Assembly (NCBI GenBank): GCA_014729085.1
Contig: WJKM01000005.1
Location: 1-37,815, forward strand
Source of the DNA: Candidatus Dojkabacteria bacterium
Lineage (GTDB): Bacteria > Patescibacteriota > Dojkabacteria > B142 > WJKM01
Reading direction: 5' to 3'
DNA length: 37,815 bases
Shown here: positions 9,650-33,475 of the stretch, in pieces
Layout of the letters: each line of letters begins with the position of its first letter
How positions within the stretch are numbered: position 1 is the stretch's first letter
Position numbers and translations under genes: made by a program
Notes under the pieces: model-generated
Databases searched by the model: none
The model's input: only the letters and a program-made list of their open reading frames with translations
Told to the model about the DNA's origin: nothing

Positions 9650-11740
9650 CTAGATATGTAATTTTATTATTCTAGTCTTCTTATTTTCAAAGATAGTCTC
9701 TCCTAAGGAAATTAATTTTTCTTCTTGAACTTGTTCTTTATAATAATCCTTTTCTATTTGTCCTAGAATAATTAAATCAATATCATATTTTTTGAGAATT
9801 TCCTTAGTTTTCTCAATATTTTCTCCAGTATAGATATATTTAACCTCTTTTTTTCTCCGTCCTACCTCATGATTTTCAAAAGAAATATCTGTATAGTTCT
9901 TTTGCCAACGCCAGGAATATTCATGCAATGGGTAGCCGAGAATAGTTGGCCATCCTAAAATCGAAGAAAAGTAATTAAATTCACCATAACTATAACCTGC
10001 TGCTTCAACGATATTAAATCTTTCCTTATTTGAATCAAGCTTATATTTATTAAGAAATTGATATGCTTGAAAATCATAAGGGTATTGTTTCTGCCAAAAA
10101 GATAAATTTTCAGAGAACTTAACCTGCTTGTTACCCTCAACTATAGTTCTGATTGTAATTATCGGACGTATGGATTGAAGTAGAATAGTGATCAAGATAA
10201 ATAATAATAGAAAAAATTTCTTTATATCAAAAGATTTTCTTAACTTTACTAAAGTCAATATTAATAAAGGACCCAATAATAATCCCAACCATGTCCATAA
10301 GTGATAATAGGTTTTAAATACTGTATTCTGTCTATAGTAACGATTTCCAACATTGTAATCAATCAAATAAAATAATTCTACAAATACCCAAAAGAAAGAA
10401 ATATTGATCGCGAAGATTAGAATGAAGAGTAATATTTTTTTACGTATAAGAAGTCTTCTCTTGTTGTCAAAAAAACTGATAAGACTAACTGAAAATAAAA
10501 CAATAAATGGACCCCATAAGCTCACCCACATAAAAAATGGAGATCTATCCCTAACAATACCTAACCCAGATATTGGAATATTAACATTCAAAGACCATGG
10601 TAAAGTGAAAATATAAAAAAGCAAAGGTGTCAGAACAAGAGCAATTAATATATATATATAATTTTGTTTAATTTTTTTAAAATATCTAAAAATTAATATT
10701 GTTCCACCTAAGACCGTTAAAGGAAAAACATCCCACGAATTAGTAATAAATAAAATACTTAGGAGGAATACAATTAATAAATATAATTTCCAGTTAAATT
10801 TTGTGGAATCTTTTTTTATCCAAACTAATAAATATGTAAAAATCAGCACTATAGACGTTAATAATCCCCAAATGTATGCGTGTAGATTATCACGCCAGAA
10901 TAAATCAAAGGAAAAAGAGGTGACCGTATTGGGAATTGTATAAAAAGTACTATCCACGAAAGTATAACGATGAACCAGAGTATCCAATCTCAAAGAATCA
11001 AGAAGTAAATATCCTATACCCCAAAATAATTCATAAAAAGTTCCAGCGAACATCACAAAGAATATGCTTAATAATCCCGAACAAAATAATAATCTCTTAT
11101 TCTTTTTTAATGATTTAAACTGCCTTCCTATTTCTATACTAAGTTGAAAAACTAAAATTCCAAAAATTCCAAAAATCCAAACAGCTACCAGTGGGAAGCC
11201 TTGGATAATATTTACTTGTGCTGTTTGTAAAATTAAATAAGCAATATAGTGCCCAAAATAATAATAATTCAAGTTTTTTCCTAGATACCAAACATCAAAT
11301 AGCGGTAAATAATCGACATTATCAAGCGATTTCAGAAATGCTAGATTCATAAATCTTTCAGCCCATCTTACATCGTAATTATGCCTTAAAAGCCAAAACA
11401 TAAAAGCTGATAACAATAAAAATAAAATTTGCACCTTTAAAATTCGACGAATATTTATATTTCCTCTTTTAATTAACTTAAGTTTTATTTGTAGAAGAGA
11501 ATTAAAAATGATCCACAACAATATGAGTAAACCTAGCCCTAAATTTGAAAATCTCAGTATTCTAAAACTGGAGAGGCAGAAATAAGTATAACCGATAACT
11601 AACCAACCAAAAATATGGGAAATAGTATATCCTTTATCTGATAATTTCTTAAAAAACACAGAAGTAAAAGGCCAGCTAACAAAGCCCATGAATATATGAA
11701 CAAGGGATATTCGAAAGAAACAAAATAGATCATTCCACAT
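9650..11740 (-). CDS. DUF2298 (Chlor_Arch_YYY) multi-pass membrane protein, probable GT-C-like glycosyltransferase
   Basis: The 696-residue protein has roughly a dozen or more transmembrane segments and a soluble C-terminal 150 residues. The loop NLNYYYFGHYIAYL (about 156-169), preceded by FDVWYLGK, matches the triple-Tyr signature that names the Chlor_Arch_YYY/DUF2298 family. The N-terminal segment around KKLSDKGYTISHIFGW also fits. Family members in Chloroflexi and archaea are thought to be membrane glycosyltransferases, by topology and genome context; the activity is not proven. The ATG at 11740 gives a family-like N-terminus. The pilin gene ends 36 bases upstream on the same strand, so the two may share a transcript, which suggests surface or pilin glycosylation as one possibility. 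Confidence 0.75.
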   Translation of the reverse strand: MWNDLFCFFRISLVHIFMGFVSWPFTSVFFKKLSDKGYTISHIFGWLVIGYTYFCLSSFRILRFSNLGLGLLILLWIIFNSLLQIKLKLIKRGNINIRRILKVQILFLLLSAFMFWLLRHNYDVRWAERFMNLAFLKSLDNVDYLPLFDVWYLGKNLNYYYFGHYIAYLILQTAQVNIIQGFPLVAVWIFGIFGILVFQLSIEIGRQFKSLKKNKRLLFCSGLLSIFFVMFAGTFYELFWGIGYLLLDSLRLDTLVHRYTFVDSTFYTIPNTVTSFSFDLFWRDNLHAYIWGLLTSIVLIFTYLLVWIKKDSTKFNWKLYLLIVFLLSILFITNSWDVFPLTVLGGTILIFRYFKKIKQNYIYILIALVLTPLLFYIFTLPWSLNVNIPISGLGIVRDRSPFFMWVSLWGPFIVLFSVSLISFFDNKRRLLIRKKILLFILIFAINISFFWVFVELFYLIDYNVGNRYYRQNTVFKTYYHLWTWLGLLLGPLLILTLVKLRKSFDIKKFFLLLFILITILLQSIRPIITIRTIVEGNKQVKFSENLSFWQKQYPYDFQAYQFLNKYKLDSNKERFNIVEAAGYSYGEFNYFSSILGWPTILGYPLHEYSWRWQKNYTDISFENHEVGRRKKEVKYIYTGENIEKTKEILKKYDIDLIILGQIEKDYYKEQVQEEKLISLGETIFENKKTRIIKLHI

Positions 11741-11776
11741 ATTTCTGTGGGCTCAGAAGAAAAAATACAACTTGAT

Positions 11777-12217
11777 TTATAGACTTGTAACATATCCATT
11801 ATTTGTACCTTCCAACACTACACCTAGTCGTAAATTCGTAGGTTCAAAACATACTGTAACTGTATTCTCCTCTCCACCGCCTCCTCCAGTACCTCCACCT
11901 AAATTGCTACAGCTTGAAAGAACACTCCCGACATTAGTAAAACCTTGTACCGGGTAGGTCCCTACAACACTCCCCCCCGAATCCGTAAACTCCAGATTGT
12001 TACCAGACTTTCTTAATCCAGAAGGATACATAAATGTATTTGTTTGAACGTCAGCAGCAAGTAATTGCAAATCTTCAACAACTTTTCTTCTTTTAGTGTT
12101 ACGTGCATTTCTTTGCACAATTTGAATACCATATGCCGCAATTGATATAAGCACAGCAATAATTGCCATGGCAACCAACAATTCAACTAAGGAGAATGCC
12201 TTGTTAATTTTCTTCAT
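11777..12217 (-). CDS. Type IV pilin-like protein (prepilin)
   Basis: This 146-residue protein starts with a short positive leader, MKKINKA, then FSLVELLVAMAIIAVL. That is the class III prepilin signature, with Glu at +5 of the mature protein. The -1 residue is Ala rather than the usual Gly, which prepilin peptidases tolerate in some cases. A long N-terminal helix (to about residue 45) is followed by a beta-rich head. A Gly-rich linker (GGGTGGGGGEE, near 107-117) lies between two Cys that could make the D-region disulfide. It should be processed and assembled into a pilus or pseudopilus. No PilB, PilC or PilD gene is in this window. The DUF2298 gene follows 36 bases downstream. Confidence 0.85.
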   Translation of the reverse strand: MKKINKAFSLVELLVAMAIIAVLISIAAYGIQIVQRNARNTKRRKVVEDLQLLAADVQTNTFMYPSGLRKSGNNLEFTDSGGSVVGTYPVQGFTNVGSVLSSCSNLGGGTGGGGGEENTVTVCFEPTNLRLGVVLEGTNNGYVTSL

Positions 12218-12378: not shown

Positions 12379-13818
12379 ATGAACAGAATATCAAAAATTT
12401 TTAAAAATAACTTATATATCATTCCATTATTATTATTTATATATGGCTTATTTATTCGACCGTCCAGTCTTTTTTTATGGACTCTTGTTTATCCTTTCGC
12501 TAGAGGTAAATCCGATGCAAAAAGTCTTGGTTTCTTTTTATATAGTTTTGTATTCCTACTCAGTTATAGCTTAATTAAACCAAAAATCAAAATATTAAAA
12601 ACACATGAAAAAAAGTTAAACGCCTTAATATATTCATTACTTATTTTTTTATTTCTAACTGGCTTAGTAACATTTCTATTTATCACATTCAAATACGAAC
12701 TAAATCCGTTTGTAAGATCTGTTTTTGTAGTTGATGGACGTTTCGATTCTACTGTAAGCCTAATTCATATCCATACCCTTAAGCCTATTTTGACTATTTT
12801 CCTAAAAATCCTTGGGAAGCAAGATATATTTGGATATGGAACGGGTTTAATTTTTACTGAATTAATTAACGAATGGTTATATTTCTTAATCTTCATTTTA
12901 TACATTGCATTCATCATTTTAATAATAATCAAAGGCAGCATTCTACTATCAAAGACCAATAAAAAAATTTCATTAGCACTTGCATATCTTATTTTTTCAT
13001 ACATGGTTATAAAATCAATTGTTGATGGAGGTTTATTCTGGTTTGAAAGTATTTTTGGATTAGGAGGATTATTGTTCTTATTGTATGACAAAAAATTTAA
13101 GACCTTAAAACAATTTAATTACTTTTCAGCTTTTCTATTGCTTTATTGTCCAATATATATACTATTGTTGATCCAAACCATTGAAATAGGAATCGATTCA
13201 AAACTATTTTATGTTTTTTTTCCGATTTTTGGAACCTTAATATTTTGCCTGAGTATATTAACATTAACTCGACCATACAAAATGTCAAAATGGACTGTAT
13301 ATGGAGGAATTCTAATAGGATTCATTATAGTATTTTTCGAAAATCCCATTTCGGCTTATGAATATAGTTACACTCCAATACCTCAAAACTCTGAAGTATA
13401 TATTACAACCTACAATAAAAACCTACACTTACCCATAGTCAATAAGGAAAAAAATTTAAAAACATTTAGGTATAAAACGAAACAAAATACTACAATAAAA
13501 AAACTATTATCTAAATATAATTTACCTATCACTTACAACTTAATAAACATTCCAGACATAAATTGTAGACTCTCTCATCCTTCTGATATTTGGACATATG
13601 ATCTACTGGTTTTAGAACATGATAAACTTAATTTGGAAGATAGATCTAACGGTTATTTTATTTTTTCAAAAGTTTATGAAAACCCCTCGGAAAAAAATGG
13701 TTTCTCTATTACTTTCCAACTTCAGGGATGTCATACTCAAATGGAAACTACAATTGTTAACCATTTAGACGAGAGAGGATTTACAAAATTTTTCATTACT
13801 GACAAAAGAAGAACCTAG
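12379..13818 (+). CDS. Multi-pass membrane protein with a C-terminal extracytoplasmic domain
   Basis: About nine or ten hydrophobic segments fill the first 330 of 479 residues. The last 145, from about FENPISAYEYSY, form a soluble, strand-rich domain with two Cys. No motif that I recognise is present. The gene ends in TAG directly followed by the ATG of the CarS-like gene at 13819 (zero-base gap), and the methyltransferase follows 14 bases later, so the three almost certainly form an operon. That context suggests a role in making, flipping or modifying a lipid-linked molecule. A probable promoter lies just upstream. Confidence 0.6.
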   Translation: MNRISKIFKNNLYIIPLLLFIYGLFIRPSSLFLWTLVYPFARGKSDAKSLGFFLYSFVFLLSYSLIKPKIKILKTHEKKLNALIYSLLIFLFLTGLVTFLFITFKYELNPFVRSVFVVDGRFDSTVSLIHIHTLKPILTIFLKILGKQDIFGYGTGLIFTELINEWLYFLIFILYIAFIILIIIKGSILLSKTNKKISLALAYLIFSYMVIKSIVDGGLFWFESIFGLGGLLFLLYDKKFKTLKQFNYFSAFLLLYCPIYILLLIQTIEIGIDSKLFYVFFPIFGTLIFCLSILTLTRPYKMSKWTVYGGILIGFIIVFFENPISAYEYSYTPIPQNSEVYITTYNKNLHLPIVNKEKNLKTFRYKTKQNTTIKKLLSKYNLPITYNLINIPDINCRLSHPSDIWTYDLLVLEHDKLNLEDRSNGYFIFSKVYENPSEKNGFSITFQLQGCHTQMETTIVNHLDERGFTKFFITDKRRT

Positions 13819-14319
13819 ATGTTTAAATTATCACTTATATTACAACTACTCATTCCTTTATGGCTAACTAATGCTGGTTTTAATATTTGGTCCTTTATTA
13901 GAAAGAAATATAATTTACCTGACTACTCATTGGACTTAAATAAAAAATTTTTTGATCAAAAAAGAATTTTTGGTGATTCAAAAACAATGATGGGAATTCC
14001 ACTTTCTCTTATTCTAGGATGCTTATCTGGTCTATTAATACAAAAACTCAATTTAGGATTCATACTTGGTATTTCTACATATATTGGTTCAACTATTTCG
14101 GGATTTTTCAAAAGAAGAATTGGTCTTAAAAGAGGAGCTTCATTTCCTGTCTTGGATCAATCAGATTACTTAATTGCCGCATATTCCATTCTCAATATAT
14201 TAAATATCAACTATTTTGATAATCAAACTTATATATATGCATTTTTTACTACTTTAATTGTCCATTCTTTAACAAACATTATCACCTATAAAATGGGGAT
14301 AAGAAAGTATCCCTGGTAA
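13819..14319 (+). CDS. CarS-like CDP-archaeol synthase / CTP-dependent lipid cytidylyltransferase family (DUF46)
   Basis: This 166-residue polytopic protein carries the conserved blocks of the CarS family (PF01864). The first is WLTNAGFN near the start. Next is SLDLNKKFFDQKRIFGDSKT (38-56), equivalent to the PLDxGxxFxDGRRxxGxxKT box. SGFFKRRIGLKRGASFP (94-110) with VLDQSDY follows. HSLTNIITYKMGIRKYPW closes the protein. CarS in archaea uses CTP to activate unsaturated archaetidic acid; it is a distant relative of bacterial CdsA. The bacterial homologue may activate phosphatidate or an isoprenoid phosphate; the substrate is not readable from sequence. It abuts the upstream membrane protein gene and precedes a methyltransferase gene by 14 bases. 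Confidence 0.8.
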   Translation: MFKLSLILQLLIPLWLTNAGFNIWSFIRKKYNLPDYSLDLNKKFFDQKRIFGDSKTMMGIPLSLILGCLSGLLIQKLNLGFILGISTYIGSTISGFFKRRIGLKRGASFPVLDQSDYLIAAYSILNILNINYFDNQTYIYAFFTTLIVHSLTNIITYKMGIRKYPW

Positions 14320-14333
14320 TAATTCTTAATCAA

Positions 14334-15068
14334 ATGCTTAATAAACCACGATCCCTTTTTCGGAGATACATAATAAAAAAGCATCTAAATCCTGGAAAAA
14401 ATTTCCTTGAAATTGGACCTGGAGATCTCAAAATATCTCAATTATTCTTAACTCAATTTCATAAGGGGACTTGCATAGATATCAATCAGAATGTCAATGC
14501 TTTATATAATCAACTTCCGGATAAAGATAAGAAAAAACTTAAACTTATTATTAATGATTTTGTAATTCATAAATTTAAGCAAACCTATTCTTGTATAATT
14601 GCATGTGAAGTGCTCGAACATGTTCCAAGTGATAAACTTTTTTTAAAAAAAATTTACTCTCTACTAGATAAGCAGGGGCAAGCAATTTTATCAGTCCCCG
14701 CAAAAATGAATCTCTGGAATACAGATGATGAACTGGCTGGACATCTAAGACGATACGAAAAAACACAACTTAAAGACTTATTAAGTAAGATTGGTTTTAA
14801 AAAAATCAAAATATTCTCGTACGGTTTTCCCTTTACTTGTATCATAAGAATAATACGGATTTATTTAGCAAAAATATTCTTGGCTAGCGTTCAATCTTCA
14901 ACCCAAAAGGAGAAAACAAAATTGAGCGGTATTGATCCAAAATTAAATAATTTAAATTTTCTAAACCTAATTTTAAATCAACTTACTTTCCTGCCTCTGA
15001 ATATTATCAGCTCCCCTTTTAACCAATTAGACTTATCAGATGGCTATATATTATTTGCAGAAAAATAA
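14334..15068 (+). CDS. Class I SAM-dependent methyltransferase
   Basis: FLEIGPGDLKIS (24-35) is motif I of the Rossmann-fold methyltransferases. CIDINQNV gives the acidic residue (Asp49) that binds the SAM ribose. IIACEVLEHVPSD (88-100) is the typical post-II/motif IV block of the Methyltransf_11/UbiE-like group, and GQAILSVPA is motif VI. The C-terminal 80 residues contain hydrophobic amphipathic stretches (around CIIRIIRIYLAKIFL), which suggests membrane association or a lipid-like substrate. The length is 244 residues. It is third in the operon behind the CarS-like gene. The substrate is unknown; a lipid or glycan intermediate is a fair guess from context. Confidence 0.8.
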   Translation: MLNKPRSLFRRYIIKKHLNPGKNFLEIGPGDLKISQLFLTQFHKGTCIDINQNVNALYNQLPDKDKKKLKLIINDFVIHKFKQTYSCIIACEVLEHVPSDKLFLKKIYSLLDKQGQAILSVPAKMNLWNTDDELAGHLRRYEKTQLKDLLSKIGFKKIKIFSYGFPFTCIIRIIRIYLAKIFLASVQSSTQKEKTKLSGIDPKLNNLNFLNLILNQLTFLPLNIISSPFNQLDLSDGYILFAEK

Positions 15069-15202: not shown

Positions 15203-16030
15203 ATGAATAATGTTAATCTCTTACTTATTGAATCGAGTTTAGATACCACCTTAAAATTTATTCATTTTGAAGCTTTAAAAAGAGGTATAAAATCGCAATA
15301 TCTCAACTATGAGGAAATTGCTAAACCATGGGTTTTTATACCTAAATTGAATGTAAATGAAAATACTATTGCTTTTTTCGCTTTACCCTTTACTGTTAAT
15401 CAAGTAGAAAAAAATTATCAGGCTATTCGAGAGAATTACAGATTTAAGGGTATTGTCAATAATGATATGCTTACTCATAATTTTCTCAAATTAGAAAACA
15501 AAAGATATGAAACTTATATATTTAGTAAACTCTCTCTCCCTTTTTCTAGATTTACAAATCTGCATAAACCGCAATTTCCCATAATTGCAAGAAAGTGTAT
15601 TAGTGGAAGAAGCAAAAATAACTTTTTAATTCAAAATCAACAACAGCTTGATACTTTTATTAGAAAATATGATGTAACCAACTGGATCTTTCAGGACTAT
15701 CATGAACTTGTTGGTGATTATCGAATCTTTGTACTGGGAGATAAACCTCTTTGTGTAGTCAAACGTAATGTAAAAATACTTCCCAATAAAAGAATAATAG
15801 TGAAAATTGCAGAAGAAAGCTCCCTACCGAAAAATGTTTTAAGAGAGTGTATGGAATTAACTAAATATATTGGAGCTGATTTTCTTGGAATAGACATTGG
15901 AATTACAAAAAATGGAAAGCACTTTTTCATTGAATACAATGGAAGGGCTCAATTCAAAACAACAAAAGAAAAAATCAAATCAGACATTGCAGAAAAAATT
16001 TTGGACTATATCCTAAATAAATATAAATAA
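15203..16030 (+). CDS. ATP-grasp ligase, RimK-like
   Basis: The 275-residue protein shows ATP-grasp features. The central region has IIARKCISGRSKN (Lys and a Gly-rich loop for ATP). WIFQDYHE is the adenine-binding hinge, and DYRIFVLGDK matches the DxRxxVxGxK block of RimK-type ligases. The C-terminal GADFLGIDIG and FFIEYNGRAQF supply the Asp/Glu/Asn metal ligands. The first 90 residues form the pre-ATP-grasp domain. These enzymes join a carboxylate to an amine through an acyl-phosphate. Possible products include modified peptides, tetrahydromethanopterin-type cofactors or polyglutamate tails; none can be chosen here. Its end overlaps the convergent gene at 16013 by 18 bases. Confidence 0.8.
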   Translation: MNNVNLLLIESSLDTTLKFIHFEALKRGIKSQYLNYEEIAKPWVFIPKLNVNENTIAFFALPFTVNQVEKNYQAIRENYRFKGIVNNDMLTHNFLKLENKRYETYIFSKLSLPFSRFTNLHKPQFPIIARKCISGRSKNNFLIQNQQQLDTFIRKYDVTNWIFQDYHELVGDYRIFVLGDKPLCVVKRNVKILPNKRIIVKIAEESSLPKNVLRECMELTKYIGADFLGIDIGITKNGKHFFIEYNGRAQFKTTKEKIKSDIAEKILDYILNKYK

Positions 16031-22799: not shown

Positions 22800-23462
22800 T
22801 TATATTTTAAATAATCCAGATTTATCTGCTATCCATTTATACCATTTTTGCATACCCTCACCGTTTATTGCAGCAACTTTCATAATATCTAGATCCCTTT
22901 TTACTTCTCTACAATAATCTAGAGTTTGCTCTATATCATATTCAACGAAGGGTAGAAGGTCTATTTTATTTACTAAACAAAGATCTGATGAATGGAACAT
23001 ATTTGGATATTTAATAGGTTTATCCTCGCCCTCAGTGACGCTAATAATAACAACCCTAAGGTTTTCACCAAGGTCAAACATTGAAGGACATATTAAATTT
23101 CCAACATTTTCAATAATAACTAAAGAATTATTGCTTGGCTTTAATTTATCTACAGCTTTCTTAATATTGACTGCATTAAGATGGCATGCCTTTCCAGTAT
23201 TAATCTGAACAGCTTCAGCACCCGCTTTCTTAATCCTCTCAGCATCTCGAGAAGTTTGCTGGTCCCCTTCTATTACATAAATATCAATTTTGTTTTGTAA
23301 ATCCTCTATTGTTTTTTCAATTAGAGTTGTTTTACCAGATCCAGGAGAACTTACCAAATTGAGAACAAATAAATTATGATCACGAAAATATTTTTTGTTT
23401 TCTTCTGCGGTAAGATTATTTTTCTTCAAAATATTTGATTCTACCTTAATTTTTTTTGCCAT
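22800..23462 (-). CDS. hypB: Hydrogenase nickel-incorporation GTPase HypB
   Basis: This 220-residue GTPase delivers nickel to the hydrogenase large subunit together with HypA. Walker A is SSPGSGKTT (38-46). The nickel/zinc site in the GTPase domain is present: Cys93-His94 in GKACHLNA and Cys125 in GNLICPSMFDLGE. NKIDLLP (165-171) is the guanine-specificity loop. The N-terminal His-rich stretch and the CxxCGC high-affinity nickel site seen in some HypB proteins are absent, so nickel storage is unlikely. There is no Shine-Dalgarno sequence. The gene lies 24 bases after hypA and 11 before the thioredoxin-like gene, all in the minus-strand hyp operon. Confidence 0.95.
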   Translation of the reverse strand: MAKKIKVESNILKKNNLTAEENKKYFRDHNLFVLNLVSSPGSGKTTLIEKTIEDLQNKIDIYVIEGDQQTSRDAERIKKAGAEAVQINTGKACHLNAVNIKKAVDKLKPSNNSLVIIENVGNLICPSMFDLGENLRVVIISVTEGEDKPIKYPNMFHSSDLCLVNKIDLLPFVEYDIEQTLDYCREVKRDLDIMKVAAINGEGMQKWYKWIADKSGLFKI

Positions 23463-23486
23463 TTAAGATTTAATAAAGATTAAAAA

Positions 23487-23828
23487 TTATTCACCAGAAA
23501 TTGACTTAACTCTCAATTCTTTTCCTTGTAATACTTTTGGGTTAAAATCATTACAGTCTGGACAACGGGACTGAAGAGTGTCCATATTGAATGTAAGACC
23601 ACAACTTAAACATTTACCTAATCCAGAAATATATATTATCTTCAGATTAGCAGACTCCAGGTTCGTATTAACTACAGCTGAATTTAATGCAAATTCCAAA
23701 GCTTCGATTTCAACTCCAGCAAGCATTCCAACTTCTATTTCAACTTCAGAGATAAAACTTATTTCATGTTTATCTGCATAATTTTCTGCGATAGCAACTA
23801 TATTCTCTGCAAGTGAAAGTTCATGCAT
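23487..23828 (-). CDS. hypA: Hydrogenase nickel chaperone HypA
   Basis: This protein passes nickel to HoxH with HypB. I place the start at the ATG at 23828, giving MHELSLAENIV and 113 residues. His2 right after the initiator Met is the conserved nickel ligand and must be N-terminal. A longer in-frame reading from 23867 would bury it behind 13 extra residues and is rejected. The zinc site is CLSC (Cys73, Cys76) and CPDC (Cys89, Cys92), spaced normally. The length equals that of typical HypA. A 96-base gap separates it from hypE upstream; no clear internal promoter was seen there. hypB follows by 24 bases. Confidence 0.95.
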   Translation of the reverse strand: MHELSLAENIVAIAENYADKHEISFISEVEIEVGMLAGVEIEALEFALNSAVVNTNLESANLKIIYISGLGKCLSCGLTFNMDTLQSRCPDCNDFNPKVLQGKELRVKSISGE

Positions 23829-23924
23829 TATTGAGTAATTTAATTTATTAACAAAATTGTCTATCAATTATAACTTCTACAGATTCAGTTGAGAAATAAA
23901 TTTCTAGGTCAGGATCGCTTATAA

Positions 23925-24938
23925 TTAACATATTCTAGGTAATTGTTCTCCGGTTAACATATCAACGATTCTTTTTCCTCCTACTGCAGTATTTAACACT
24001 ACCTTTCCGTTATACTTTTCCGTTACTTTACCTATTATACTACTATCTTTTCCAAGTTTATTATTATGTAGTATTCCAATAACCTTTTCTGCAATACTTT
24101 TATCAACTACCATTACAAATTTGCCTTCATTAGCAATATATAGAGGATCAAAACCAAGTAGTTCACACAGACTTTCCACATCTTCCTTCATAGGTATACT
24201 CTTTTCATCAATCTCTACACCTAAATTAGTTGAGGAAGCAATCTCTACCAAGACCGTTGCTAACCCTCCTCTGGTGGGGTCTCTCATAAATTTTACCCCT
24301 TCTATTTGCGATAATACTTTCTGAATTAAATGATTTAGGCATGCACAATCTGACTGAATATCTGATTCGATATCAAAATCCTGGCGGGAAGATAAAACTG
24401 CCATTCCATGGTCTGCAATACTACCGTTAATAATAACAACGTCTCCTGGCCTGATATTAACCATTTTACCCATGTTCGCAACACTTTTGGGAAAAAATCC
24501 AATACCTGCAGTATTAATAAAAACTTTATCACATTTTCCCTTATCCACTACTTTAGTATCTCCTGTAACTATTTCCACTTCTGCTTTTTCTGCTTCCTTT
24601 GCAATAGATCTTACAACTTTCTCAAGGTCTTTTATAGGAAATCCTTCCTCCAAGATAAAACTTAATGATAAATACTTTGGGACAGCTCCGGATACTGCAA
24701 TATCATTAACAGTACCACAAACTGCCAATTTACCAATATCTCCTCCCTGGAAAAAAATTGGATCTACAACAAATGAATCGGTCGTAAATGCCAGTGAACT
24801 AGTGTCTGTTTCAAAAACAGCAGAATCAGTAAGTTTTTTTAATATACTACTCTTGAAGTATTTTAAAAACAATGCTTTTATTAATGTCTGGGAAGCCTCT
24901 CCTCCACTTCCGTGAGCTATTAAAACTTCTTTTTTCAT
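23925..24938 (-). CDS. hypE: Hydrogenase maturation protein HypE
   Basis: HypE converts the carbamoyl group received from HypF on its C-terminal Cys into thiocyanate, and so supplies the CN ligands of the NiFe site. The protein has 337 residues and ends exactly in PRIC, with the essential Cys last. The N-terminal half shows the PurM/ThiL-like ATP-binding fold: HGSGGEAS, then FTTDSFVVDP and GTVNDIAVSGA. RDPTRGGLATVL is in the middle. Its ATG overlaps the hypD stop (ATGA, four bases), which implies translational coupling. All key features are intact. Confidence 0.95.
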   Translation of the reverse strand: MKKEVLIAHGSGGEASQTLIKALFLKYFKSSILKKLTDSAVFETDTSSLAFTTDSFVVDPIFFQGGDIGKLAVCGTVNDIAVSGAVPKYLSLSFILEEGFPIKDLEKVVRSIAKEAEKAEVEIVTGDTKVVDKGKCDKVFINTAGIGFFPKSVANMGKMVNIRPGDVVIINGSIADHGMAVLSSRQDFDIESDIQSDCACLNHLIQKVLSQIEGVKFMRDPTRGGLATVLVEIASSTNLGVEIDEKSIPMKEDVESLCELLGFDPLYIANEGKFVMVVDKSIAEKVIGILHNNKLGKDSSIIGKVTEKYNGKVVLNTAVGGKRIVDMLTGEQLPRIC

Positions 24939-26032
24939 ACTCTATTATACTTGTAATATGCGGCACATGCACCCTCGGAGGATACCATGCATGCTCCAAC
25001 TGGATTAATAGGTTTACATACTTTACCAAAAAGCTTGCAATCCTTTGGGCATTTAACTCCCTTTAAAATTTGCCCACATATACAGCCTTTTGGTTCAACT
25101 GTTTTTTCTACTTTGACTTTTATCTGCTCTTCAGCATCATACTCCTCAAATTTATTTCTGATTTTTAAACCGCTGTTTTCTAGTACTCCAAGCCCTCTCC
25201 ACCAATCATCTCTTGGTTCAAATACCTCTTGAATCAATTTTTGTGCTTTTAAGTTCCCCTCAGGTTTAACGGCTCTTTTATACTGAATTTGAACTTTGAA
25301 TTTATTTTCCTCTATTTGTTTTATTAGTAAATATATTGACTGCAAAATATCAACTGGTTCAAAACCTGCAATTACAACGGGTATATTGTATTTCTTAGCA
25401 ATAAAATCATAAATTTTAGAGCCAGTAACAGTACTTACGTGTCCTGGAGCAAGATAACCGTTTAACTTCACTTTTTCATCAATCAGAGCTTTCATTGCTG
25501 GGGGCATAAGCTTATGTGCGGAATATACTAAAAAGTTACTAAGGTCTTCTTTTTTTGCAATTTTGATTCCTGCCGCACTTGTCGGAGCTGTTGTCTCAAA
25601 ACCAATACCTAAAAAAACAACTTTTTTTTCTGAGTTATGTTTGCTCTGAATCTCTCTTGCAATTTTTATTGCATCCATTATTGAGTAAACAATGCGAATA
25701 TCTGCCCCTCTTGCTTTTTCTTGACCAAGCGAAGAGCTCGAGCCAGGTACTTTCATTAAGTCTCCGAATGTTGTAATTATTACATCCTCCAATCTACTAT
25801 ATGCAACTGCTTTATCGATATATTTACGCGAAGTTACACATACCGGACACCCAGGTCCTGAAATTAACTCAATATTATCCGGCAATAATGACTTTATCCC
25901 GAATCTAAATATTACCATAGTATGCCCTCCACATACTTCCATTAAACGTACCTTCTTCGTAGAAATTGCTTTAATCTTCTCAACAATATTTTCAATCTTT
26001 TTTGTTTCTCGATATTCAGAAATATAATCCAT
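24935..26032 (-). CDS. hypD: Hydrogenase maturation protein HypD
   Basis: HypD is the Fe-S scaffold that, with HypC, carries the Fe(CN)2CO unit. Visible motifs are VCGGHT (Cys34, His37), GPGCPVC (Cys62, Cys65) and GFETTAPTSA. The C-terminal cysteine cluster CICG...CPKDC...C...GACMVSSEGAC includes the ligands of its [4Fe-4S] cluster. I choose the ATG at 26032 (365 residues); a TTG one codon earlier is in frame but adds nothing. The start lies three bases after the TGA of the upstream membrane-protein gene, and the end overlaps hypE by four bases, so translation of this block is tightly coupled. Full length and all motifs are present. Confidence 0.95.
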   Translation of the reverse strand: MDYISEYRETKKIENIVEKIKAISTKKVRLMEVCGGHTMVIFRFGIKSLLPDNIELISGPGCPVCVTSRKYIDKAVAYSRLEDVIITTFGDLMKVPGSSSSLGQEKARGADIRIVYSIMDAIKIAREIQSKHNSEKKVVFLGIGFETTAPTSAAGIKIAKKEDLSNFLVYSAHKLMPPAMKALIDEKVKLNGYLAPGHVSTVTGSKIYDFIAKKYNIPVVIAGFEPVDILQSIYLLIKQIEENKFKVQIQYKRAVKPEGNLKAQKLIQEVFEPRDDWWRGLGVLENSGLKIRNKFEEYDAEEQIKVKVEKTVEPKGCICGQILKGVKCPKDCKLFGKVCKPINPVGACMVSSEGACAAYYKYNRV

Positions 26033-26035
26033 CAA

Positions 26036-27280
26036 TCATTTGTAATGTATAATTTGGGTCTTGTAATACTTTGAGTACTTATCTTCTCCATAATCTTTTT
26101 TAATCTCCCGAAAAGTATCCACATTGGCAGATCGAACAATATCAACTCTAAAGCCTCCATCTTTTAAATACCATAAATAATCTCTATGCACGTAATATAC
26201 ATGTTGATTATCCATACAATAAGAAATCCCTACGCACCGGAATGAATTAACTGTTAGATCTTTTAATTTTATATATCTGTGATCGTAATTCTTATAATAA
26301 ACATTTCCCCAAATATCTCTATAAAAAATATTCTTCATTAATTTATTGTTAATCTCGTACTTCTGGTTTAAAAATAAAAGACCTAAAATAAGACTAACTA
26401 TGATCACTGTCATATGCAAGCTATATTTTTTTAAATTTATATAGAACTTTTTGAATTCTTTTTTTCTATTACGAATCTGTGATTCACCTTTTTTAATTTC
26501 ATTTTCAGTTCTTTTAAATATATGTTTAATAATTTTTGATAATGGAATTGACAGACTCACTAAAATGTTGAAACAAAGCGATATTAAAAGCAAGAAGAAG
26601 TCCAATTCAGTTATGTTCATATCTATCCAATAATAAACCATTATAAGAAAGAGTATCACTTCTAAAGGAACTAAGAGAATACATAGGAGAATGGTAAGCA
26701 GTTTCTTATCAATCAAAATAAATAACACCTTTAAGAGTGGAAATACTAAAAATATAACGAGAGCAATCATACCAATAAAACTAGCAAATATTGACAAATC
26801 ATATAAATATATTGAATACCCTAATGGACTAATGCTTAACAACAACAATATGATCAGCATTAGTTTAGAAACAATAGGTTTATTATCTTGCTCTGAGTAT
26901 ATGCTTTTATAAATAAATTTTAATAAAAGTAACAGCAACAAGAACAAATCTACTAAAACGTTTATCAAGACACCGAATAATGCAAGAATATCTTTTCCAT
27001 AACTATTTCCAAAGGCAACTATAAAGAGAAACAACTCTGCGGGTAAAATAAATAAAGTAAGAATATTCCTTGCTTTTTCGAAATTGAAAAAATACAACAC
27101 GGCCTTAACAAGTGGAACGATTAATATTATGCTTACCATAATCACAGATGCCAGATCTCTTAAAATCAACTTAATATCCCAAAGCAATGGAATTAATACT
27201 AATATGAAGGATATCAACAATACTATTGAAGAAATTAGTCCATATATTTTGATTCCTTTTTTCTTTTTAAAAATTGTCAT
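26036..27280 (-). CDS. Membrane protein with a C-terminal DKNYY-like domain, embedded in the hyp operon
   Basis: This 414-residue protein has about seven or eight hydrophobic segments in the first 245 residues. A charged Lys/Arg-rich cytoplasmic loop follows (about 250-285), then one more membrane helix (about 287-305) and an outer C-terminal domain. That domain (GNVYYKNYDHRYI, then MDNQHVYYVHRDYLWYL, VDTFREIKKDY) resembles the DKNYY family (PF13644), short repeats of unknown function found on surface proteins. It is not a known Hyp or Hox component. It sits between hypC and hypD, its TGA three bases from the hypD ATG, so it is surely co-transcribed and coupled. A role in metal supply, or membrane attachment of maturation, is conceivable; nothing in the sequence proves it. 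Confidence 0.65.
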   Translation of the reverse strand: MTIFKKKKGIKIYGLISSIVLLISFILVLIPLLWDIKLILRDLASVIMVSIILIVPLVKAVLYFFNFEKARNILTLFILPAELFLFIVAFGNSYGKDILALFGVLINVLVDLFLLLLLLLKFIYKSIYSEQDNKPIVSKLMLIILLLLSISPLGYSIYLYDLSIFASFIGMIALVIFLVFPLLKVLFILIDKKLLTILLCILLVPLEVILFLIMVYYWIDMNITELDFFLLLISLCFNILVSLSIPLSKIIKHIFKRTENEIKKGESQIRNRKKEFKKFYINLKKYSLHMTVIIVSLILGLLFLNQKYEINNKLMKNIFYRDIWGNVYYKNYDHRYIKLKDLTVNSFRCVGISYCMDNQHVYYVHRDYLWYLKDGGFRVDIVRSANVDTFREIKKDYGEDKYSKYYKTQIIHYK

Positions 27281-27339
27281 TATTATTCAATTAAGATTAA
27301 TCTCTATATATTTAGAATAAACACGTTACATCAAACTCT

Positions 27340-27552
27340 CTACTCCATAAACTCATCCAATAAATCTAGTGTTTCTTTTGCTTCTTTCTCATCCAGCTTC
27401 TGTAAGGCAAACCCAGTATGAACTAGAACAAAATCTCCTTTTTCGACTCCATCTACTAATTCCAGACTAATATTTACTTTCACACCTCCAACTAAGGCTT
27501 CAGCTTGTCTGCCACTGATGGATACAATTTTTGCTGGAATGGATAAACACAT
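27340..27552 (-). CDS. hypC: Hydrogenase maturation chaperone HypC
   Basis: This is a 70-residue protein with the invariant start MCLSIPAKI; after Met removal the N-terminal Cys binds the iron precursor held with HypD. The core GDFVLVHTGFALQKLDEKEA is the family signature. HypC also acts as chaperone for the immature large subunit, here HoxH. The gene lies 40 bases after hypF and 59 before the DKNYY-like membrane gene. Only one hypC-type gene is present, which suits a single hydrogenase. Confidence 0.95.
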   Translation of the reverse strand: MCLSIPAKIVSISGRQAEALVGGVKVNISLELVDGVEKGDFVLVHTGFALQKLDEKEAKETLDLLDEFME

Positions 27553-27592
27553 ATATACTTAAGATTTGAAAGTTAATAAAGATTTAAATTCT

Positions 27593-29899
27593 TCACAAAT
27601 TCTGAGCTGCAACTGCTAATTGTCCTAATGAAATTCCACCATCATTTGAAGGAATTATTTTATTTGAATATACTTTAAAACCAAGCTTTTTTAATTCTTC
27701 TTCGGTATTCGACAATAAAAATTTATTTTGAAATACTCCTCCAGATAATATAACTTTTTTTATATTGTTTTCTTGAGTAATTTCTTTACAAACCTCAATA
27801 ATCATTTTAACCAAAGTGTTGTGAAACTTGAAAGAAATCTCTTTTTTTTCAACATTGTTGTGCACATCATTTAATATTTGTTCCATCATAGATTTAACTG
27901 AAATACAATCTGAAATAATAAAATCGTAGTGTTCTTTTTCATTGTATCTGGGGTTTAATTCTTTGGAATATAATTCTGATTCTAATCTCATTGGAGCTTC
28001 TGCATGAAATGTACTCTTGGTACACAAACCAGTCATTGCGGAAACAGCATCAAACAAACGTCCAACACTGGATGTTTCTGGACAGTTTATATCTTTTTCA
28101 AGCATTTTAAGTATTTTCATAGTTCTTTGCTTGTCTTTTTGTAAAGAAACTGGATATTCATTTATTTTTTTTAATCCCATGGAAAAAAGATAGGCGATAC
28201 TCATCCTAAAAGGCTCTTGAACTACTTTGTCGCCACCAGGCATGGGAATGTTTTCAAAATGATATTGTCTTTCAAAAGCTTGTAAGTCACATACAAAAAA
28301 CTCCCCGCCCCAAATTTTGCCATCAACTCCATACCCCATTCCGTCGAAAGCCACCCCAACGACTTTTTCATTAAGTCCATATTCTGCCATGCAAGAAGCA
28401 ATATGAGCATGATGATGTTGAACAGCTAAAAGTTTAACATCCTTTTTCTTCTCAAATTGTTTTGCATATTTTGTAGATAGATAATCCGGATGCATATCAT
28501 GTGCAATTATCTGGGGAGAAGATTTAAACAACTTCTTGAATTTTTCAATATTACTTTCAAAGAATTCATATGTTGATAGATTTTTTAAATCACCCATATA
28601 CTGACTAGGAACAGCCTGCTTGTTATTTCCTACACAAAATGTACTGTTAAGCTCTGCACCTACTGAAAGTATTCCATCAACCTGATATTTCATTCGAAAA
28701 GGCCTTGGTGCATAACCTCTGGAACGCCTTATCATTCTCTCCTCTTCATCATCACAAAAAACCACAGAGTCATCTAATCTATTTTCAATTTCACGGTTAT
28801 AGATCACTAATCCATCCACCAACTTAGAAAACTTACTAATTGCAATCTTATTTTGAATAATGATAGGTTCTCCAGAAACATTTCCACTTGTAAATACTAA
28901 GGAAGAAACCTCAAGCTCTCTAAAGAGAAGATGGTGAAAAGGCATATATGGCAACATAATTCCCAGTGTATTCAGGTTACCTGTTATATTGCTAGCAATG
29001 TCAGGAGATTTATTATTACTTTTCTTCTTTTTTCTCAATAGCACAATGGGCCTCTTCCAAGATGTGAGAATTTGTTCTTCTTTCTGATTTACCTTGCAGT
29101 AATTGTTGATCTTTTTCACATCCTTAAACATTAAAGCTAAAGGCTTTTTACTTCTCTTTTTAAATTTTCTAATTCGACTTATCGCCTTATTATCAAAAGC
29201 ATTACAAACCAAATGAAATCCCCCCAAACCTTTGATTGCTAATACTTTACCTTTGTTAATCATTTTGGCTACCATTCTTACAATTTCCTTAATATTATCT
29301 ATCTCTTCTCCATTTTTCAAAATAAACTTATATTTAGGGCCGCATAAATTACAAGCCACAGGCTGTGCATGAAAACGTCTATCAAGTACATCTTCATATT
29401 CCTTTCTGCATTTTTCACACATTGGGAAGTCTTTCATTGTTGTCTTGGCTCGATCATAGGGTAAGGATTTTATGATAGAGAATCTAGGACCACAATTAGT
29501 ACAATTTGTGAGTGGATAATTAATTCGATGTTTCTGTACCTTCATGTCTTTCAAACAATCTTTACACACGGCAATATCCGGACTTATTTCTGTTATTCCT
29601 TTTTTGCTTTTTCTACTCTTAGTGATTTTAAAAGAGTCTGCAGAAAAGCTCTCAATTTCTTCACAACTGATAGAAAATATTGAAGAAGCAGGGGGAGACT
29701 CCTTCTCTATGGCTTCTAAAAAATATTTTAATTTATTTTGATCAAGGATTGCTTTAATGAACACACCTTCGCTTGTATTGTTTACCTCTCCTTTTACATT
29801 GAATCTCTTTGCCAATCTGTATATAAAAGGTCTAAATCCCACTCCTTGAACTAATCCTTGTATTTTAATAGATATAAATTTGATTTTTAATAGTTTCAT
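27593..29899 (-). CDS. hypF: Carbamoyltransferase HypF
   Basis: HypF uses carbamoyl phosphate and ATP to carbamoylate the C-terminal Cys of HypE. The 768 residues hold all expected domains. The acylphosphatase-like domain (about 8-95) has QGVGFRPF and NNTSEG. Two zinc fingers follow, with Cys112/115, 133/136, 161/164 and 183/186. A YrdC-like domain (about 205-395) contains KGLGGFHLVCNA and TSGNVSGEP. The Kae1-like C-terminal domain has VQHHHAHIASCMAEYG and AFDGMGYG. The start at 29899 gives a natural N-terminus. It is the first gene of the hyp operon and diverges from hoxF across 105 bases. Confidence 0.95.
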   Translation of the reverse strand: MKLLKIKFISIKIQGLVQGVGFRPFIYRLAKRFNVKGEVNNTSEGVFIKAILDQNKLKYFLEAIEKESPPASSIFSISCEEIESFSADSFKITKSRKSKKGITEISPDIAVCKDCLKDMKVQKHRINYPLTNCTNCGPRFSIIKSLPYDRAKTTMKDFPMCEKCRKEYEDVLDRRFHAQPVACNLCGPKYKFILKNGEEIDNIKEIVRMVAKMINKGKVLAIKGLGGFHLVCNAFDNKAISRIRKFKKRSKKPLALMFKDVKKINNYCKVNQKEEQILTSWKRPIVLLRKKKKSNNKSPDIASNITGNLNTLGIMLPYMPFHHLLFRELEVSSLVFTSGNVSGEPIIIQNKIAISKFSKLVDGLVIYNREIENRLDDSVVFCDDEEERMIRRSRGYAPRPFRMKYQVDGILSVGAELNSTFCVGNNKQAVPSQYMGDLKNLSTYEFFESNIEKFKKLFKSSPQIIAHDMHPDYLSTKYAKQFEKKKDVKLLAVQHHHAHIASCMAEYGLNEKVVGVAFDGMGYGVDGKIWGGEFFVCDLQAFERQYHFENIPMPGGDKVVQEPFRMSIAYLFSMGLKKINEYPVSLQKDKQRTMKILKMLEKDINCPETSSVGRLFDAVSAMTGLCTKSTFHAEAPMRLESELYSKELNPRYNEKEHYDFIISDCISVKSMMEQILNDVHNNVEKKEISFKFHNTLVKMIIEVCKEITQENNIKKVILSGGVFQNKFLLSNTEEELKKLGFKVYSNKIIPSNDGGISLGQLAVAAQNL

Positions 29900-29916
29900 A
29901 ATTAATCGATAAATTT

Positions 29917-29922
29917 ATTATA
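29917..29922 (-). promoter_or_regulatory. Putative -10 element of the hyp operon
   Basis: On the minus strand this is a perfect TATAAT, 17 bases before the hypF ATG, so the leader would be only about ten bases. No good -35 is seen at 16-18 bases, which may mean an activator is needed. Confidence 0.35.
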
Positions 29923-29950
29923 CAATCCTATTTTGCATTTTGTATTTTAA

Positions 29951-29980
29951 TAGACATTTAAAAGTGTTAACATTTATATG
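29951..29980 (+). promoter_or_regulatory. Putative hox operon promoter with a palindrome in its spacer
   Basis: TAGACA (29951-29956; five of six to consensus), an 18-base spacer and TATATG (29975-29980) precede the hoxF ATG at 30005. The 8-base palindrome TGTTAACA (29965-29972) lies inside the spacer, where a bound regulator would block polymerase. The -35 region is back-to-back with that of the divergent hyp operon. Confidence 0.4.
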
Positions 29981-30004
29981 AAAGGTTTTCAATAAGAAAT
30001 TTAA

Positions 30005-31783
30005 ATGACGAATTCAGATATTCAAGAAATACTTGGTAAGTATAACAATGACCGATTCCGGCTCATGGATATTTTGTTAGATATCCAGGATAAGTACGGT
30101 TATATACCAAAAAAATTTTTTAATCTAATTGGACAAGCTGTTGGCTTGTCAAGTGCTAAAGTTGAAGAAACTGTGACTTTCTATCATTTCTTTCACACTT
30201 CTCCAAAAGGTAAATATACTATTTATCTTAATGACGGAATAGTAGCAACCATGAAGGGAAGGGACAATATTTTGAAACAATTTTCAGAACAAACAGGATG
30301 CCAAATTAATTCTGTTTCAAAAGACGAAAAATTCGGGCTCTTTTCAACTCCTTGCATTGGAATGTCTGACCAAGAGCCAGCAGCAATTATTAATAAACAT
30401 ATTTTTACTAATCTAACCGTCGAGAAAGTAAATCGAATTGTTAGACTAATGAAGAAGGATACTCCTATTCAAAAAATAATTCAAACTATCTATGAGAGTG
30501 ATAAAGTTCAAAATTTAATCCATACAATGGTAACAGATAATATTAAAAAAACAGGCTCTGTTTTGTTAAATAAATATAAAAGAGGCTCTGCAGTAAAAAA
30601 ATCTCTTAATAAAAACCCTGAGGAAATATTGGAAGAGATAAAGAATTCAAATTTAAGAGGACGTGGAGGTGCAGGGTTTCCAACTGGAACTAAATGGGAG
30701 TTTTGTACTAAATCTAAACAAAAGCCAAAATTCATAGTTTGTAATGCAGATGAAGGAGAACCGGGAACTTTTAAGGACCGGGTTCTTTTAACAAATTATC
30801 CCGAATTATTATTTGATGGAATGATTATTGCCGGCTATACACTAGGAGCTGAACACGGAATAATCTACTTAAGATACGAGTACTCATATTTAAAGAATTT
30901 TCTACAATCAAAACTTGAACAATATAAAAAAGAAAATTTACTTGGTAAAAAAATTGTAAACAGTGATTTTAATTTTGATATAAGAATCCAACTTGGTGCA
31001 GGATCTTATGTTTGTGGAGAGGAAACCGCATTAATCGAATCAATGGAAGGCAAACGCGGAGAGCCTAGAAACAGGCCACCTTTTCCCGCCTCCTGCGGAT
31101 ATGTAAATAAGCCCACAACAGTTAACAATGTAGAAACTTTATCTTGTGTACCAAAAATAATCAACCATGGCTCTGAGTGGTTCAAATCCTTTGGCACAGA
31201 AGAATCTGCAGGTACTAAGTTATTGAGTATATGCGGAGATTGTGGTAATTCGGGAGTATTTGAAATTGAATTTGGAATGACTATCAATGAAATGCTCGAA
31301 ATGGCCGATACAATAGAAACACAAGCTGTAGTTGTCGCCGGCCCGTCTGGAAAAATCATTTCCGAAAATGAATTTAACAGAAAAATTTGTTTTGAAGACT
31401 TAGCAACAGCTGGTGCAATGATTATTATTGGCAAGCAAAGAAATCTTCTAGAAGAAGTTGTCCCTAACTTTTTAGACTTTTTCATTGACGAATCTTGTGG
31501 GTCGTGTACCCCATGCAGGGTAATTACGACTCATGCCAAAAACAGATTGAAAAAAATTCTTGCAGGAAAAGGAACAACAAAAGATCTGAAAGATATAAAA
31601 TCTTGGGGTAACTTAATGCAAAAATCTAATAGATGCGGACTTGGAAAAACTGCATTAAATCCTCTATTAACAACAATTAAATTTTTTCCTGAACTCTATG
31701 AAAGATTAATCAAAGATAAGGAATATATCTCAGAATTTAATCTTGAAAAAGCAACAGCAGACTATGAAAAAATTACTAAATAA
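30005..31783 (+). CDS. hoxF: NAD-reducing hydrogenase diaphorase subunit HoxF (NuoE-NuoF fusion)
   Basis: This 592-residue subunit exchanges electrons with NAD(H) through FMN. Residues 1-150 are a NuoE-like domain, and 180-592 are NuoF-like. NLRGRGGAGFPTG and VCNADEGEPGTFKDR bind FMN and NAD, and GAGSYVCGEETALIES is conserved. Cys498, Cys501, Cys504 and Cys544 hold a [4Fe-4S] cluster. In the NuoE part, the four [2Fe-2S] ligands align to Asn76, Ala81, Cys117 and Ser121, so only one survives and that cluster should be absent. The fusion and length match the HoxF of Ralstonia-type soluble hydrogenases (about 600 residues) rather than separate HoxE plus HoxF. First gene of the hox operon. Confidence 0.93.
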   Translation: MTNSDIQEILGKYNNDRFRLMDILLDIQDKYGYIPKKFFNLIGQAVGLSSAKVEETVTFYHFFHTSPKGKYTIYLNDGIVATMKGRDNILKQFSEQTGCQINSVSKDEKFGLFSTPCIGMSDQEPAAIINKHIFTNLTVEKVNRIVRLMKKDTPIQKIIQTIYESDKVQNLIHTMVTDNIKKTGSVLLNKYKRGSAVKKSLNKNPEEILEEIKNSNLRGRGGAGFPTGTKWEFCTKSKQKPKFIVCNADEGEPGTFKDRVLLTNYPELLFDGMIIAGYTLGAEHGIIYLRYEYSYLKNFLQSKLEQYKKENLLGKKIVNSDFNFDIRIQLGAGSYVCGEETALIESMEGKRGEPRNRPPFPASCGYVNKPTTVNNVETLSCVPKIINHGSEWFKSFGTEESAGTKLLSICGDCGNSGVFEIEFGMTINEMLEMADTIETQAVVVAGPSGKIISENEFNRKICFEDLATAGAMIIIGKQRNLLEEVVPNFLDFFIDESCGSCTPCRVITTHAKNRLKKILAGKGTTKDLKDIKSWGNLMQKSNRCGLGKTALNPLLTTIKFFPELYERLIKDKEYISEFNLEKATADYEKITK

Positions 31784-31800
31784 ATTATTAACTTTATAAT

Positions 31801-32019
31801 ATGACAAACATTCTAGATATCTCACAAGCTCTTACAAATGAGATGGACCTTGTGTTGCATGCAAATGATCTAAAGAAAAATGCCCAAAATAAGGATTTCA
31901 AAGAGATGCTAGAAAAACTTGAAATGCTCGGAATCGAGAAAGCCTTAATATGGCTTAAGATTTTAAAAGAAGGACCATGGGAGGAAGCTTTAAAGGAAAG
32001 TCTTAAAGAATTGAAATAA
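31801..32019 (+). CDS. Small helical protein between hoxF and hoxU, unknown
   Basis: The 72 residues are predicted to be nearly all helix, with balanced charge and a central LEKLEMLGIEKALIWLKILKEG segment; no Cys and no signal peptide. It lies 17 bases after hoxF and 30 before hoxU on the same strand, so it is within the hox operon. It matches no Hox or Nuo subunit known to me. It might be a small accessory subunit or assembly factor of the diaphorase, suggested by position only. Its length, codon use and start context resemble those of its neighbours, so I consider it a real gene. Confidence 0.65.
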   Translation: MTNILDISQALTNEMDLVLHANDLKKNAQNKDFKEMLEKLEMLGIEKALIWLKILKEGPWEEALKESLKELK

Positions 32020-32049
32020 TTTATATGTTAATCTAATCTGAAACTAATA

Positions 32050-32766: not shown

Positions 32767-32805
32767 TTAATTGGTATGTTTTTAATTGTTTAAGCTTAAT
32801 TTGCT

Positions 32806-33357: not shown

Positions 33358-33433
33358 AAAAATTGGTAAAGTCAGAATGCAATATACTAAAAATATTTGC
33401 AAAAAAAATAATCGATGACAATCAACCATTTCA

Positions 33434-33453: not shown

Positions 33454-33475
33454 AAATTACTAACTAATACTATCT

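Follow-up and report, generated by a model that had tools for sequence, protein, structure and literature searches.

A putative pilin-accessory gene set of Patescibacteria includes a CarS-derived protein that has lost a metal-binding aspartate

We found a set of three neighbouring genes on a contig of a Candidatus Dojkabacteria genome (phylum Patescibacteria), which encode a type IV prepilin, a polytopic membrane protein of an undescribed family, here named FAGGRS, and a small protein related to CarS, the CDP-archaeol synthase (CDP, cytidine diphosphate) of archaeal lipid synthesis. The whole contig of 37,815 bases was analysed and is referred to as the window; the genome comprises 1.6 Mb in 23 contigs. 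That this gene set exists, and that its CarS-like member has lost an aspartate of the active site, we regard as practically certain. We interpret the set as a pilin-accessory cassette of Patescibacteria, which combines a prepilin with an outward-facing membrane protein and a CarS-derived protein, and give this interpretation a probability of about 0.58, because the searches recovered the variant CarS nowhere but next to the membrane protein and because all ten loci have a prepilin gene beside the set, as opposed to none of 29 loci with a canonical CarS. The set probably serves the pilin, while a covalent modification of the pilin is a more tentative proposal that we would not yet bet on. A preliminary description, made from the bare sequence, had suggested for the window an operon for an unusual CDP-activated, methylated lipid or lipid-linked glycan, but for this variant branch the CarS or lipid label is misleading.

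Distant lineages have kept the CarS-like and the membrane protein together. A search of named genomes with a profile of the membrane protein revealed nine loci (L086 to L094, 3.7-13.4 kb long) in bacterium USDE_metabat.163, CPR3 GWF2_35_18, two Doudnabacteria, two Nomurabacteria, bacterium D4_MAG_00069, and a Patescibacteria metagenome-assembled genome (MAG) with its near copy WY2.bin70, which makes ten loci including the window, nine of them distinct. An initial search of the genome contigs with the window protein alone as query had given no match. Among 379 genomes of the phylum, the first membrane-protein profile matched five, four of which correspond to loci of the named-genome search; the ten-member profile matched the same five and, at 18.7 bits, a sequence with an internal stop in G254, which was dropped as a chance match. 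Judged by G138, G091, G342 and G263 (L086, L087, L088 and L091, respectively), which belong to the phylum of the window, there was no sign that foreign contigs contaminate the MAG. The variant CarS gene adjoins the membrane-protein gene in eight of the ten loci, that is, in seven of the nine relatives, and the coupling thus goes beyond chance. The overlap amounts to 4-20 bp in L087-L090; the genes abut in the window, are separated by 5 bp in L086, and run divergently with an 8-bp spacer in L093 and L094. The L091 contig ends inside the membrane-protein gene, and the L092 locus has no CarS gene. Conversely, a variant CarS profile scored 182-220 bits in G091, G342, G138 and the window genome (G000), and the next protein reached 94 bits, although this gap is flattered by a profile trained on these same proteins. 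In the fifth genome with the membrane protein, the contig ends inside that gene. With this self-trained profile, no variant CarS was detected away from the membrane protein in the 379 phylum genomes or in the nine relatives' genomes, nor was there any match in the L091 and L092 genomes.

Of the proposed three-gene coupling, the pair of CarS-like and membrane protein thus stands, whereas the methyltransferase does not belong to it. Neither the methyltransferase nor the nearby ATP-grasp and DUF2298 proteins had a tblastn match at E<=0.01 in any of the nine relatives' loci, by which all three were ruled out as conserved partners within these loci. As judged from these searches, the methyltransferase is a neighbour in the window genome only and not part of the conserved cassette; a more distant linkage of these three genes, beyond the short loci, may exist. 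Members of the variant CarS branch hence occur without the methyltransferase, but were not found without the membrane protein.

The conserved third partner is a prepilin, whose gene in the window lies outside the segment of the preliminary description, divergently upstream of the membrane-protein gene with 161 bp between them. In the relatives, prepilin genes are located upstream and in the same direction (L086, L087, L089, L090 with three in tandem, L091, L092), downstream of the CarS gene (L088), or convergent at 2 bp (L093, L094), and the persistence of adjacency despite such varying placement points to selection. The prepilin motif pattern behind the canonical control (0 of 29 loci of the same phylum; 458 open reading frames, 405 kb) recovered the pilins of the window, L062 and L063, but not the pilin fragment of L086. 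As a background, 1.17 Mb of G000 and G091 contained seven matches to this pattern, or ten with a wider pattern, one of which was judged spurious. An 84-residue open reading frame in L160 that fits the pattern was dropped as spurious. Most pilins of the set belong to one family (..AP..DPCG..C..LE..SF). Those of the window and L093 are shorter and different, and pilins in five of the nine relatives' loci were weakly matched by the window pilin in tblastn (E 9e-6 to 7e-4). The pilin ends with S-[FLM] in seven of the ten loci (SL in the window, SF in L086-L090, SM in L092), the other ends being SFR in L091 and GS in L093 and L094. Nine other pilins from G000 and G091 end with YI, ID, DY, RD, TR, TR, TR, PR and SY, and therefore include no S-[FLM] end, or one in nine if Ser-Tyr is counted. 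This is a correlation and no more than suggestive of the C-terminal serine as a modification site. A PilB/MshE-type ATPase (T2SSE, 421.7 bits) and a PilC-type piece (T2SSF, 52.1 bits) are encoded in the window genome, which can thus probably build a pilus. A pilus locus apart from the window was also observed, with six prepilin-pattern proteins after a PilC-type piece (L164:41-5285, on G000:C15).

The CarS-like protein of the window is a true member of its family, as had been proposed: it passes the PF01864 threshold (74.4 bits, cut-off 22, E 1.5e-20), and its model (mean per-residue confidence, pLDDT, 84.9) has the CarS structure of ApCarS (5guf; TM-scores 0.67/0.70) as its sole PDB match at E<=0.001. 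PF01148 (CdsA) was not among its Pfam matches at E<=1. Fold, length class and five long helices are shared with CarS and with the canonical relatives in Patescibacteria. A match to phrog_32313 (E 2e-16, function not assigned there) indicates that some phages carry CarS-like proteins as well.

The motifs, in contrast, are not intact, contrary to what had been stated. In TmCdsA, D219 and D249 form a dyad that holds the Mg-K centre (PMC7018664, cited here, as are the other papers, from excerpts), and the active site of CarS and CdsA lies on the cytoplasmic side (PMC9385802, PMC7018664). The window protein has Ser91 instead of the first aspartate in its GD...S..KRR motif, and KTMMG replaces KT(W/I)RG. 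The match to D219 is lost in all eight variants (seven distinct proteins), while KRR is present in all eight and the match to D249 in seven; in L086 (DHIS) this second aspartate is gone, too. In five variants, three of which were first noticed by GH...S..KRR as opposed to GD...S..KRR of canonical proteins, the D219 position is occupied by histidine (L086, L087 and L088, identical to L064, L062 and L063, respectively, as well as L089 and L090), in the other three by serine (window, L093, L094). The five His variants moreover have DH instead of DQ and read STT where GxxK[TS] is expected, so that they lose a lysine which all 55 other CarS-like proteins keep. This comparison set consists of 46 motif-bearing matches from the variant-profile search of the 379 phylum genomes and nine proteins from a search of the window's class, and has Asp at the D219 position in 52 cases, Glu in three and His or Ser in none. 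The three Glu proteins are low scorers (G097, G311, G147; 49.5 bits or less). They (L208, L220, L221) also have an NSF..KR motif, are grouped with a support of 99/90 on long branches, and possibly represent a further sub-branch. Replacement of the aspartate as a common event in CarS was rejected after examination of the proteins of all 50 matched genomes, as only these three carry Glu; in two of the 50, G348 and G194, no CarS motif was found in the frames read. When E. coli CdsA is aligned to the TmCdsA chain, the GD aspartate is at chain position 239 and the second aspartate of DRxD at 269; both are 20 higher than D219 and D249 of the literature, in keeping with a constant offset.

Phylogeny placed the protein on a separate variant branch. 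In a maximum-likelihood tree of 46 proteins, a branch with a support of 95/96 separates the seven distinct variants from the rest, and in a second tree of 62 rows (17 more proteins, ApCarS left out) the branch is supported by 93/93; in neither tree had the bootstrap completely converged, and both contain several long variant branches. With the window protein as query, 41 of the 379 phylum genomes gave matches. The variants thus differ from CarS in the lost D219 match, in the lysine missing from five of eight, in their separate branch and in having been found only next to the membrane protein. In a daptomycin-resistant Streptococcus, a change of the matching aspartate to asparagine went along with a loss of CdsA function (PMC7018664). 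The loss of this residue, by sequence a mutated active site, is a strong but not final sign of inactivity, and the CarS derivative is likely inactive as a cytidylyltransferase. As the metal ligand is lost in 8 of 8 proteins, the variant as a working CDP-lipid synthase is unsupported.

The window genome has another candidate for that role. Its PF01864 matches are two, the window protein and a protein on another contig (C21:84444-84986), which has the full motifs GDHKTIRG, GDAVKSFFKRR and DQLD. A CDP-alcohol phosphatidyltransferase gene (PF01066, 125 bits) is located two genes beyond, and the C21 protein is also the only one in the genome to match the PF01148 profile (28.2 bits). The housekeeping CDP-lipid enzyme of this genome, if there is one, is therefore most likely the C21 protein, judging by its sequence and surroundings. 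In the window's class, a PF01148 match was found in 12 of 85 genomes; 73 had none, and 74 had no match to the window CarS. Many of these genomes may import lipids or rely on other enzymes. The canonical gene on C21 adjoins a gene for a 314-residue protein without Pfam match (L022:9433-12512), and proteins of 310-323 residues with a similar start were observed beside canonical CarS in L026-L029 and L032, as a recurring neighbour.

The membrane protein was rightly described as unknown: none of the ten members has a Pfam or NCBIfam match above cut-off. The best match below threshold was the MIP channel model TIGR00861 in L089 (20.6 bits, cut-off 171), which L089 and L090 match weakly (E 3e-4 and 8e-3, respectively) and far below cut-off. 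A PHROGs scan of three members gave no match, and the best PDB sequence match of the family profile had an E-value of 0.16. The AlphaFold model (pLDDT 69.6, predicted TM-score 0.70) had no Foldseek match in PDB or BFVD at E<=0.001 and a VIA-align Z of at most 5.0, but at such model confidence the absent fold match proves nothing. Identity with a known transporter, ligase or GT-C enzyme was discarded on the basis of the sequence searches, although a GT-C or O-antigen-ligase fold may escape a model of this confidence. An origin from mobile elements was rejected as well: no relative from the family alignment was found in viral contigs, none of the window membrane protein in phages and none of the L087 protein in plasmids.

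Conservation in this family is concentrated in a few polar and glycine-rich segments. In all ten aligned rows, A41, G43 and S45 of the signature are invariant, and K48 is nearly so, while position 44 is Lys in the window and Arg in the other nine; S124, H130, H132, K135, D216, G217 and G218 are invariant, too, as is Tyr203 inside a helix, and K212 is placed at an outer helix end. Orientation was derived from the positive-inside rule over the ten members. Lysine and arginine of the short loops are mostly found in loops 2, 4, 6 and 8 and, where present, the N-terminus; loops 1, 3, 5 and 7 are poor in both, and the C-terminal domain, about 150 residues long and with a nearly invariant cysteine, is balanced. 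Departures are loop 4 of L086, which has no Lys or Arg, and L089, L090 and L092, which have no first helix. The residues A41, G43, S45, S124, H130, H132, K135, D216, G217 and G218 and the C-terminal domain are thereby predicted to face outwards, and a polar cluster facing outwards next to a pilin would suit an action on the globular part of the pilin.

Most likely, the cassette would work as follows. The prepilin would enter the membrane, where the membrane protein would bind its globular part on the outer face via the extracytoplasmic C-terminal domain. The outward cluster of Ser, His, Lys and Asp could then modify the pilin, with the C-terminal Ser-[Phe/Leu/Met] as candidate site, or ready it for assembly. 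The CarS derivative, which has kept the fold and lost the catalytic metal ligand, would have given up CDP-lipid synthesis and act as a lipid-binding or structural subunit. A bolder version, which we consider improbable, is that a re-coded CarS fold (Asp-Asp to His in most members) was drafted into pilus biogenesis and that a lipid-derived group is put on the C-terminal serine of the pilin. Such a modification, with an outward enzyme of a new family, would be of an undescribed kind, but we doubt its occurrence to the same degree.

Other explanations have to be considered. The CarS derivative might still be CTP-dependent (cytidine triphosphate), with a rebuilt metal site, and provide an activated lipid from which the membrane protein moves a phospho-headgroup or the lipid to the pilin. 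The conserved fold, KRR in all variants and the D249 match in seven of eight would agree with this, as would eukaryotic CDP-diacylglycerol synthases, which have glycine at position 219 (PMC7018664), and the change from DQ to DH in the five His members, as might be expected of a new metal site. However, these five have lost the otherwise constant lysine of GxxK[TS], L086 has also lost the D249 match, the serine of the window protein is a poor metal ligand, and L092 manages without a CarS gene, so that we consider an active enzyme unlikely, though worth keeping in mind. Equally unlikely in our estimate is a purely non-covalent role, in which the membrane protein would be a TfpY-like chaperone or adapter of its own pilin, stabilised by the CarS derivative. 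TfpY-like proteins encoded beside pilin genes do help assembly, and their pilins proved to be unmodified (PMC11841053), but the invariant Ser, His, His, Lys, Lys and Asp, residues of catalytic type on one membrane side, exceed the needs of a scaffold, although this is an argument only.

The lipid operon of the preliminary description appears very improbable. In its favour are PF01864 membership and three plus-strand genes with gaps of zero and 14 bases, an arrangement that we could confirm, and 'CarS' labels in this phylum do invite a lipid reading, because close homologues of geranylgeranylglyceryl phosphate (GGGP) and digeranylgeranylglyceryl phosphate (DGGGP) synthases have been reported together in bacteria of the FCB (Fibrobacteres-Chlorobi-Bacteroidetes) group and in one Parcubacteria genome (PMC7852524). 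The catalytic aspartate is lost, however, the methyltransferase has no homologue in the relatives' loci, and a lipid role is unsupported because the conserved third partner is a prepilin and because a separate canonical CarS is encoded near the CDP-alcohol phosphatidyltransferase. Least probable of all, by a small measure, is that the prepilin adjoins the pair by chance or hitch-hiking and that the pair does something unrelated in the membrane. The phylum commonly carries prepilin genes, and the window pilin is divergent and of a different type, but ten out of ten loci, as opposed to none of the 29 control loci, speak against a coincidence.

Several observations weigh against the pilin-accessory cassette that we favour. 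L092 has a pilin and the membrane protein and no CarS-like match in its genome, so that the CarS-like gene appears dispensable there, and the L091 genome, in which the contig ends at the locus, is also without such a match. The window pilin is encoded divergently, 161 bp away, and has no DPCG..C region, unlike most others. The L086 pilin is seen only as a C-terminal fragment where the contig begins, the frame ahead of it contains a stop, and the control pattern failed to detect it. The count of pilin C-termini is small, the ten loci amount to nine distinct ones, and the membrane-protein model is of only middling confidence. Loss of the D219 match is no proof of inactivity, as eukaryotic enzymes have Gly and three CarS-like proteins Glu at this position. 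Finally, no canonical CarS was found in six of the variant genomes, in which CdsA was not searched, and the variant could therefore be the sole such enzyme in these six.

The arrangement resembles the cassettes of Pseudomonas aeruginosa, in which pilA is accompanied by tfpO, tfpW, tfpX, tfpY or tfpZ and a pilin gene is thus likewise found beside a membrane-protein gene across lineages; tfpO or tfpW glycosylate the pilin there, and tfpY-like genes aid its assembly (PMC11841053). The present set differs in that its membrane protein has neither a known family above cut-off nor a confident fold match, and in that it adds a second accessory protein, of CarS descent. Also, gaps of 2-11 bp after the pilin gene in L086 and L089-L092 leave no room for a terminator such as the one described after pilA. 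TfpO (PilO) acts on the C-terminal serine of its pilin (PMC6385209), and the partner pilins of the set mostly end with serine and a hydrophobic residue and have a membrane protein beside them; however, no family shared by TfpO and the FAGGRS-family protein was found. Glycosyltransferases of the TfpO, TfpW or PglL type had no sequence match at Pfam and NCBIfam cut-offs in any of the ten membrane-protein members. A description of the set of prepilin, membrane protein and CarS-like protein was not found in the open-access literature.

The features of the window are compiled in Table 1. The methyltransferase was described as having hydrophobic helices; a class I methyltransferase it is, but with a single moderately hydrophobic stretch (best 19-residue mean 1.68). 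Downstream of it, a RimK-like ATP-grasp protein is encoded at 15203-16030 (+; PF08443, E 1.8e-8). DUF2298, which we take to be a GT-C-type family, adjoins the prepilin on the minus strand (the two genes span 9650-12217); its gene may be co-transcribed with the pilin gene and may encode a pilin-linked glycosyltransferase in the window genome. At 22800-35373 the translations look like hydrogenase maturation proteins and a multi-subunit NiFe hydrogenase, presumably.

Table 1. Position of the cassette genes, their key residues and adjoining genes in the window
Position	Strand	Feature	Basis or remark
9650..11740	-	DUF2298 membrane protein	PF10060, E 2.2e-46; same strand as prepilin, 36 bp downstream
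11777..12217	-	Type IV prepilin, 146 residues, KINKAFSLVELL, C-terminus ..LEGTNNGYVTSL	PF07963 N_methyl, 32.2 bits
12379..13818	+	Polytopic membrane protein of the undescribed FAGGRS family, 479 residues, about 9 predicted transmembrane helices	Alignment, topology, model
12496..12522	+	FARGKSDAK, family signature FAGGRSxxK, membrane-protein residues 40-48, predicted extracytoplasmic (loop 1)	
12766..12783	+	HIHTLK with invariant H130, H132 and K135, predicted extracytoplasmic (loop 3)	
13024..13032	+	DGG, conserved without exception (membrane-protein residues 216-218), predicted extracytoplasmic	
13819..14319	+	CarS-like protein of the variant branch, 166 residues	PF01864; zero-base gap to membrane-protein gene
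14089..14091	+	Ser91 of the CarS-like protein, at the place of the metal-binding Asp (TmCdsA D219)	Alignments
14164..14166	+	Asp116 of the CarS-like protein, match of TmCdsA D249, retained	Alignments
14334..15068	+	Class I methyltransferase, 244 residues	PF13489 (Methyltransf_23), E 6.7e-15; 14-base gap after CarS-like gene

Cultivated Patescibacteria are obligate episymbionts, and Saccharibacteria use type IV pili to bind their hosts and to twitch, with O-glycosylation predicted for three pilins (PMC12206443). The set described here is rare, with five of 379 phylum genomes, yet it occurs in distant lineages. Variants of this kind should not be taken to indicate that bacteria make archaeal-type lipids, because the catalytic aspartate is missing despite the Pfam label 'CDP-archaeol synthase'. 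If our interpretation is true, the pairing of a pilin with two accessory proteins of its own would offer a way into the making or decoration of such pili.

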